Source: Synergistaceae bacterium (lineage in GTDB: Bacteria; Synergistota; Synergistia; Synergistales; Synergistaceae). From it: DNA of 49,203 nucleotides. This document shows positions 1 to 1,984 of this stretch, piece by piece. The notes beneath the pieces were generated by a model. It searched no databases, was not told the DNA's origin, and saw nothing but the letters and a program-made list of their open reading frames with translations. The stretch spans positions 1-49,203 of the forward strand of contig JAUNJZ010000019.1 in the NCBI GenBank assembly GCA_030533085.1. Direction: 5' to 3'. A program made the translations under genes and the position numbers. How positions within the stretch are numbered: the stretch's first letter is position 1; each line of letters opens with the position of its first letter.

Positions 1-54
1 CATCGCGGAAACCGCGCCGTACGCGATACGGTTATGCTCATAAAGCTCTATCAT
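1..54 (-). CDS. 5' end of a leftward gene, possibly an SF2 helicase (partial)
   Basis: Only the first 18 codons are inside the window; they read MIELYEHNRIAYGAVSAM. The start is well supported: an ATG at 54 is preceded by a GGGAGG ribosome binding site at 65-70 with about 10 nt of spacing. The pattern LYxHNxxAYxA..M resembles the N-terminus of DEAD/DEAH (SF2) helicase-like proteins found in accessory islands, where an ATP-binding HPTGTGKS loop usually follows shortly after. This is recalled from the family, and 18 residues cannot prove it. The gene lies directly downstream of the promoter in the invertible cassette at 93-255, so its expression is predicted to depend on the orientation of that cassette. 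Confidence 0.5.
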   Translation of the reverse strand, partial: MIELYEHNRIAYGAVSAM

Positions 55-92
55 GTCGCTCTTGCCTCCCACTTCGTTCCTGTCATCCTGAC

Positions 93-118
93 GGCTAACA
101 AGGTGTACCTTTTTAGCC
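93..118. repeat. Recombination site 1 (26 bp, core GT)
   Basis: The left arm is GGCTAACAAGGT (93-104), the centre is GT (105-106) and the right arm is ACCTTTTTAGCC (107-118). The arms are inverted repeats with a single mismatch at position 99. It lies in the predicted leader of the leftward gene, 38 bp from its start codon. Confidence 0.7.
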
Positions 119-191
119 ACTTAACAATTACATTCTTTTCTTTTCAAATCACCGACATAAGCCTTATCTATAAGCTTCCGACGACTCATTA

Positions 192-220
192 TTAATACAC
201 CGAACCGCTTTTTTTGTCAA
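192..220 (-). promoter_or_regulatory. Sigma-70-type promoter inside the invertible segment
   Basis: On the minus strand a perfect -35 box TTGACA (215-220) is followed by a 17-nt spacer and a -10 box TATTAA (192-197; 4 of 6 consensus bases). Transcription would start near 185 and run left through site 1 to the ATG at 54, giving a leader of about 130 nt. A near-palindrome at 159-177 (AAGCCTTAT, CT, ATAAGCTT) lies just downstream of the predicted start and could form a leader hairpin or bind a regulator. Confidence 0.65.
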
Positions 221-229
221 TAACTGCAT

Positions 230-255
230 GGCTAAAAAGGTACACCTTTTTAGCC
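230..255. repeat. Recombination site 2 (26 bp, core AC)
   Basis: The left arm is GGCTAAAAAGGT (230-241), the centre is AC (242-243) and the right arm is ACCTTTTTAGCC (244-255); the arms are perfect inverted repeats. Read on the minus strand its core is GT, like site 1 on the plus strand. The two sites are therefore inverted with respect to their overlap dinucleotides, which favours inversion over deletion. A 2-nt loop and no T-tract argue against a terminator. Confidence 0.7.
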
Positions 256-303: not shown

Positions 304-894
304 TCAGCCCGGCATTGCCCAGCGTTTGAAGGTCGTGTGGGTTATTTGGAGCTTGAGAGCGGCTTTGCGGGCGGAGATGTCTCCTTTTTCCCAGGCGCTT
401 TTGATCGTTTCAAATTCTTCGGGGCGTTCTTTGGGAGGGCGGCCGAGGGTGCGGCCGTTTTCTTTTGCCGCGGCTATTCCCTCCGCCTGTCTTTGGCGGA
501 TAAATTCGCGCTCTGTCTCAGCGACGTAGCTGAGCAGCTGGAGTACGATGTCGGCAATCAGTATGCCTGTGAGGTCGCGGTTCTGTCTTGTGTCGAGCAG
601 CGGCATGTCGAGAACGACGATTGCGCTCTGCTTTTCTTTTGTCAGTATCCTCCACTGTTCCAGAATTTCTCTGTAGTTGCGGCCAAGGCGGTCGATGCTT
701 TTTATCACGAGAAGATCTCCGGCTTTTAATTTTTTCAGCAGCCTTTTGTAGCCGCTGCGTTCAAAATCCTTGCCAGACTGTTTGTCGAGGAAGATGTTTC
801 TTGCCGGGATGCCGTATTCAAGCATGGCGGCTCTCTGTCTCTCTTCGTTCTGATCTCTGGACGAGACCCGGATATAAGCGTATTGTTTGCTCAT
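304..894 (-). CDS. Serine recombinase (resolvase/DNA invertase family)
   Basis: This 196-residue protein is a small serine recombinase of the Hin/Pin/Tn3-resolvase type. The N-terminal catalytic domain starts with YIRVSS; the nucleophile is Ser11 by alignment with the family RVS motif. It also carries the conserved DRLGR segment. A helical segment follows, rich in R, Q and E (TEREFIRQRQAEGIAAAK), and the C-terminus has a helix-turn-helix (ARKAALKLQITHTTFKRW) for binding site arms. Length is typical of invertases and resolvases. The ATG at 894 has a GGAGG site at a 6-nt distance. It is read toward the inverted 26-bp sites at 93-255, which are its obvious candidate substrate. It could instead be a resolvase of a lost transposon. 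Confidence 0.9.
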   Translation of the reverse strand: MSKQYAYIRVSSRDQNEERQRAAMLEYGIPARNIFLDKQSGKDFERSGYKRLLKKLKAGDLLVIKSIDRLGRNYREILEQWRILTKEKQSAIVVLDMPLLDTRQNRDLTGILIADIVLQLLSYVAETEREFIRQRQAEGIAAAKENGRTLGRPPKERPEEFETIKSAWEKGDISARKAALKLQITHTTFKRWAMPG

Positions 895-1126: not shown

Positions 1127-1984
1127 TTATTTATCTTTATCCGCTTCCCGCCCTATTTCTGCTACCAGCTCTATCACGTTGGTAAAATCCAGGGCGTTTT
1201 GTCTGGTAATCACGGGACGCCCTGAGGTGGCTTCTATGGATTTTCTTGCCTCTCCGGCGACTGCCCCGCCTTTTTGCGCCACCTGAATGTTCTCGCTAAG
1301 GGTTTCAGGTTCGATGGCCTTTGAAAATTCCGTTGTCGTCGCTTCGGCGAGCATATTCAATACCAGTTCAAGGTCGCTCATGTTGTCGCGGAGATTTTCT
1401 TTTTTCAGCCCTTTAAGGTTCTTATACTGGCGCGTCGTCATACCCGCCCATGCTTTCGTTATCTCGTCGGTGAGTATGGCGTATTCCATGCCTTTTCTGA
1501 CGCCGCGAGTATCCCATTCGGCCGTGAGGTCGTTACGGATGCGGATCGAGAGCAGCCGCTGATGAATCCATTCCTTCGTATAGCCCTTTCTCAGATACGT
1601 TTCAAAGGCGCGGTCGATGGCAAGCTCCGGATCCGCCGTTTCTTCGATGCGCTCCGCCCCGACGCGCGCGAGCCATAGTTTGAAAGGCTCGGCTTTTGGG
1701 GAGGGGATGGACTGAATCAGGCGTAAGAGCTGTTCTGTCGTGGCGGCGTCGGTCAGGCGCATTTTGCCGTCAGCGGCCTGTAATTTCAACTGGTGACAAT
1801 TTGTCACCGTTTCATTTCCTTCCTCTTTTAGGCGCTGTTTCAGTTTATTCCAGTATTTTCTGCCGTCAGCGCTGTCGGTCAGCGCACTCACGACGTCCAC
1901 AACGGAAAAATACCACTCTTCCTCCGCCTCTACCCATACGGAGCGTATTTTCTTGTTCTCAAACAGCGCTGTTTTGTCTGACAT
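1127..1984 (-). CDS. BRO-N domain protein, phage antirepressor-like
   Basis: A 285-residue protein whose N-terminal ~110 residues match the Bro-N/antirepressor fold (IRSVWVEAEEEWYFSVVDVV, then a YWNKLKQRLKEEG segment). The rest is a helical region of the kind found in bacterial BRO-family proteins of this length. Such proteins are common in prophages and genomic islands; they are thought to bind DNA, but the function of this subgroup is not established. The ATG at 1984 is preceded by a GGAGGAG site. It lies in the same leftward direction as the serine recombinase and immediately downstream of cysS, which probably marks one edge of the accessory patch. No phage structural genes are visible. 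Confidence 0.75.
   Translation of the reverse strand: MSDKTALFENKKIRSVWVEAEEEWYFSVVDVVSALTDSADGRKYWNKLKQRLKEEGNETVTNCHQLKLQAADGKMRLTDAATTEQLLRLIQSIPSPKAEPFKLWLARVGAERIEETADPELAIDRAFETYLRKGYTKEWIHQRLLSIRIRNDLTAEWDTRGVRKGMEYAILTDEITKAWAGMTTRQYKNLKGLKKENLRDNMSDLELVLNMLAEATTTEFSKAIEPETLSENIQVAQKGGAVAGEARKSIEATSGRPVITRQNALDFTNVIELVAEIGREADKDK

Follow-up and report, generated by a model that had tools for sequence, protein, structure and literature searches.

The window, meaning the whole 49,203-bp stretch of DNA analysed here, is the entire contig C25 of a Synergistaceae genome assembly (G000; 2.63 Mb in 76 contigs). At its start lie the 5' end of a helicase gene, a promoter between two inverted 26-bp sites, and a serine recombinase gene whose open reading frame lies 48 bp from site 2 (Table 1). 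The positions that an earlier note on this DNA gave for both sites with their cores, the intervening 111 bp, the promoter and the recombinase gene all hold. Each site is a 26-bp near-palindrome, and the two together form a 27-nt inverted pair that is 96% complementary, with a start-to-start distance of 137 bp, or 13.0 turns at 10.5 bp. Site 2 was also flagged as terminator-like and folds into a hairpin.

Table 1. Features of the promoter switch and its neighbours at the start of the window.
Feature	Position	Strand	Details	Basis
Helicase gene, 5' end (DEAD/ResIII with HA domains)	1-54	-	18 codons, cut by contig end	homologue comparison
Probable ribosome-binding site of helicase gene	65-70	-	GGGAGG	sequence
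Site 1, helicase-gene side	93-118		12-bp arms GGCTAACAAGGT / ACCTTTTTAGCC; core GT at 105-106	sequence
Invertible segment	119-229		111 bp between site 1 and site 2	
Sigma-70-type promoter	192-220	-	TTGACA-N17-TATTAA; -35 at 220-215, -10 at 197-192; facing helicase gene (ON)	
Site 2, recombinase side	230-255		perfect 12-bp arms GGCTAAAAAGGT / ACCTTTTTAGCC; core AC at 242-243	sequence
Serine recombinase, probable invertase	304-894	-	196 aa	Pfam Resolvase, E=2e-29

The arrangement is that of an inverton, a promoter-bearing segment flanked by short inverted repeats, and the sites are of the Hin/Gin type, being inverted 26-bp sites with a 2-bp core that allows inversion only. With one core GT and the other AC, the cut ends could be rejoined only with the segment inverted, and the cores likewise led us to reject a direct-repeat reading in which the segment is deleted. 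The pair scored 36.5, compared with a top score of 26.5 among 2110 dinucleotide-shuffled recombinase-downstream regions, and a control with the reversed site pattern gave zero sites in the window's own genome and in 100 relatives. The best PDB relatives of the recombinase are Sin (2r0q) and Gin (3uj3), and it is the single recombinase homologue found in G000. A gene for a BRO-N domain protein lies upstream of it (1127-1984, minus strand) and is not beside the recombinase in the related genomes G015, G029 and G020.

The site pattern was found at one further locus of G000 (C34:82-107 and 219-244). The flanks of this locus and of the window are colinear, with 76/80 positions identical on the gene side (95%) and 55/67 on the recombinase side (82%), and the interior of C34 matches that of the window only as its reverse complement (103/110 identical). 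On C25 the promoter points toward the helicase gene (ON), and the promoter on C34 points away from it (OFF). Judged from these alignments, the two loci differ by inversion in place and not by a different insertion. C34 has no recombinase gene; it retains a short sequence similar to the 3' end of the recombinase gene, and the next gene is one that we take, from reading its translation, to be metG. The lone recombinase of G000 probably also flips the C34 cassette in trans.

Allowing up to 3 mismatches, the site pattern was present in 5 of 101 related genomes (G000 counted). G015 and G029, both single-contig assemblies, and G020 share the order recombinase, switch, helicase, polysaccharide genes. 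At the orthologous helicase loci, which span other genera, the promoter is ON in G029 and OFF in G015, G020 and on contig C8 of G013. G000 has one recombinase gene and two cassettes; G013 carries a standalone recombinase, alone on C12, and several cassettes elsewhere, among them those at the helicase on C8 and at an MBOAT acyltransferase gene on C5. The G013 interiors are 97-98% identical, that of C15 being inverted relative to C8 (103/105) and that of C1 having the same orientation as C8 (95/98). Because the cassettes in G013 and on C34 lie apart from the recombinase, this enzyme probably acts in trans. The G013 contigs C1, C15, C18, C23 and C5 end at or near a site, which would fit either repeated cassettes or mixed orientations. 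An end of C5 (L135) and the starts of C18 (L139) and C23 (L140) fall within one base of a recombination site.

The promoter is thus kept in the relatives in both orientations. A comparison of related strains for flipped versions had been proposed in the earlier note as a check; across the related genomes both orientations were seen, between paralogous as well as orthologous loci. The prediction that recombination would invert the segment and not lose it is supported by near-identical interiors in both orientations between colinear flanks, and by the inverted cores of the wider recombinase family.

This family was surveyed with 211 non-redundant, testable homologues drawn from genome contigs, the window recombinase's own family, two further bacterial families and viral contigs. 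The 350 bp after each stop codon were searched, with a score of at least 26.5 required of a pair. An inverted 26-bp site pair was present directly downstream in 44 of the 211 homologues as against 2 of 2110 shuffles, and the hix-like site geometry proposed in the earlier note therefore recurs, with the rest of the architecture, in dozens of homologues. In about four fifths of the 211 no clear pair lay within this 350-bp stretch, and the sites of these homologues may be located elsewhere or be too diverged. When pairs were picked with the core left out of the score, the cores of 36/49 allowed inversion only, 2 allowed deletion only, 4 were palindromic and 7 were neither. The site arms vary with recombinase lineage. 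Most interiors hold promoter-like sequence, with 11-12 of 12 matches in 6/44 compared with 0.3% of shuffled interiors.

Genes downstream of the module are mostly surface and defence genes. In other family members it stands in front of genes for peptide synthetases, an S-layer protein, restriction-modification, a HerA-like ATPase and TnpB-like proteins. MmeI-type/Eco57I-type restriction-modification genes and a viral-contig HerA-like ATPase follow the module at L288:2284-3438 (+), L073:4637-6592 (+) and L170:4709-7981 (+). Site pairs were also seen directly upstream of TnpB/Cas12f-like genes (L086:6134-7318, plus strand; L081:6307-7488, minus strand), and from this position a relative of RNA-guided nucleases may be phase-variable.

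Distance played no part in the selection of pairs, and yet the site-to-site distances cluster near 95, 116, 126, 137, 147 and 157 bp. The best spacing period was 10.5 bp with a phase near zero (R=0.75, n=44), and none of 20000 jittered sets was as high. When the set was restricted to recombinases sharing less than 70% identity (n=21), R was 0.68, a value reached by 1 of 20000 jittered sets; a limit of 62% leaves 8 recombinases, at which the periodicity test loses power. Low-scoring pairs, used as a negative control, gave R=0.09 (n=119). The simplest reading is that pairing in a short loop would require both sites to lie on one face of the helix. The 10.5-bp periodicity is a testable signature of site pairing and helps to recognise such switches when only sequence is at hand.

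The earlier note had the gene in front of the promoter leaving the window. A gene does start at the window end, but contig C25 itself begins at base 1, and it is the assembly that cuts the gene after 18 codons. The first 55 bases of the window also open contig C34 without a mismatch, a pattern that fits an assembly break at a repeat; both contigs end at this common 55-mer, and the G000 assembly is fragmented. The same helicase start occurs on contig C44 with 2/55 mismatches. A search of G000 for the rest of the helicase found 63 matching codons on C44 only, the helicase body and its operon being missing from the assembly. This C44 copy (L090:11168-11357) is a third HA-helicase start; the promoter-like sequence that precedes it is fixed and lacks recombination sites.

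Complete relatives of the helicase have the Pfam domains ResIII and Helicase_C together with four to six HA domains, and most of them also match DEAD. Polysaccharide genes follow the HA-helicase in 17/20 loci (including G013-C8, whose next genes were read separately), and the genes downstream encode sugar transferases, DegT aminotransferases and glycosyltransferases. By analogy with these relatives, a polysaccharide operon would lie behind the truncated helicase of the window. No site pair was found upstream of the second helicase copies in G015 and G029 or of the C44 copy, and therefore switching appears to be an option added to some helicase-led operons. A role of the helicase in a defence system was rejected, given no more than weak helicase-domain matches in PADLOC and polysaccharide genes as neighbours. 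No paper that connects an HA helicase with invertible promoters turned up in literature searches; a helicase family has been linked to mucin-carrier enrichment, which is a lead only (PMC10267222).

Other explanations of the locus were considered. The 26-bp palindromes could be paired operators, of a repressor or of an autoregulating recombinase, looping the DNA over the promoter with no inversion at all, a reading in keeping with near-perfect palindromes that stand in helical phase and recur at several loci. However, it leaves unexplained how near-identical interiors come to lie in opposite orientations between colinear flanks, and why the non-palindromic cores are inverted (36 inverted versus 2 direct). 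We rejected it on the inverted interiors and consider it highly improbable. An origin in transposon or plasmid resolution, with the sites as a res-like system or as the ends of a mobile element, is extremely improbable, even though the nearest solved relative of the recombinase is the resolvase Sin and some homologues are on viral contigs. Resolution by resolvases needs direct repeats, and instead of direct repeats with several sub-sites we found single inverted 26-bp sites with non-palindromic cores and no res-like cluster; the surface and defence genes downstream also speak against this reading, and it was rejected.

It could also be that the switch is real but is flipped in trans by another recombinase, the neighbouring gene being a bystander. 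We think this very unlikely: the cassettes of C34 and G013 do lie away from any recombinase gene, but only one homologue was found in G000, and site pairs are strongly linked to the neighbouring recombinase's family, with arms that follow its lineages. The neighbouring recombinase is the probable enzyme that flips the segment.

The repeats of the Bacteroides fragilis invertible promoters are reportedly similar to hin repeats, going by the title of Patrick et al. 2003. The statement of the earlier note that no switch with this exact layout had been described was too strong, as Mpi (FinA) of B. fragilis flips polysaccharide promoters (PMC5903667, PMC4747536, PMC3090145). Mpi is a serine recombinase that inverts at least 13 regions, including seven polysaccharide loci (PMC5903667), and the likeness extends to a single serine invertase, small promoter segments between genes, several loci that are here probably served in trans, and polysaccharide operons led by regulatory genes (PMC5903667, PMC4747536, PMC3090145), which in B. 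fragilis are up(a-h)Y and up(a-h)Z (PMC3090145). In the window system, by contrast, the leading gene is an HA-domain helicase and not UpxY/UpxZ, the promoter is sigma-70-like, and in most relatives the recombinase gene is the neighbour of the switch. The two layouts are closely parallel, although the top NCBIfam match of the recombinase, the Mpi master invertase family (NF009949), scores 56.9 bits against a curated cut-off of 272, too low for assignment to that family. Hin of Salmonella, of the same group as Gin and Cin, is a serine recombinase that inverts a promoter between two inverted 26-bp sites; it acts on a segment of about 1 kb and depends on an enhancer bound by Fis (PMC3798978), whereas the window segment is 111 bp with the recombinase gene outside. 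The RecV switches of Clostridioides difficile and other gut invertons likewise control surface traits through short invertible segments between genes (PMC5903667, PMC11892184), but RecV is a tyrosine recombinase and the window has a serine recombinase with 26-bp sites. An earlier survey reported inversions in 1/2 Synergistetes species (PMC5903667).

Taken as sequence evidence, the two orientations, the inverted cores, the helical spacing and the family-wide linkage to the recombinase make it very likely that the locus is a phase-variation switch, in which the neighbouring recombinase inverts the promoter segment and turns a helicase-led, most likely surface-polysaccharide, operon ON and OFF. 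The recombinase would bind the two sites as dimers, and the sites, separated by an integral number of helical turns, would be paired in a short DNA loop, followed by cleavage at the 2-bp cores, rotation and rejoining. In the orientation of the window the promoter, presumably active, would drive the HA-domain helicase gene and the polysaccharide cluster behind it; after a flip it would face the recombinase gene from its 3' end, leaving the operon OFF. Where the recombinase gene adjoins the switch, the geometry would permit antisense control of it, but the terminator-like site 2 lies between the two. Such feedback cannot be a general requirement, because several cassettes (C34, G013) have no adjoining recombinase.

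Perhaps these are enhancer-independent serine invertases that rely on helical phasing of two sites across a loop some 9 to 15 turns long, with the HA-domain helicase serving as an operon-specific transcription elongation factor for long polysaccharide operons, in the role that UpxY has in Bacteroides; this joint reading is tentative, and we regard it as rather unlikely to hold as a whole. The helicase heading polysaccharide operons is a concrete candidate for a hitherto undescribed regulator specific to its operon. The switch proposed here would extend the control of surface polysaccharides by serine invertases beyond Bacteroides to the lineage of the window and to many Clostridia, with one switch module placed before very different genes, for polysaccharides, peptide synthetases, S-layer, restriction-modification and TnpB.
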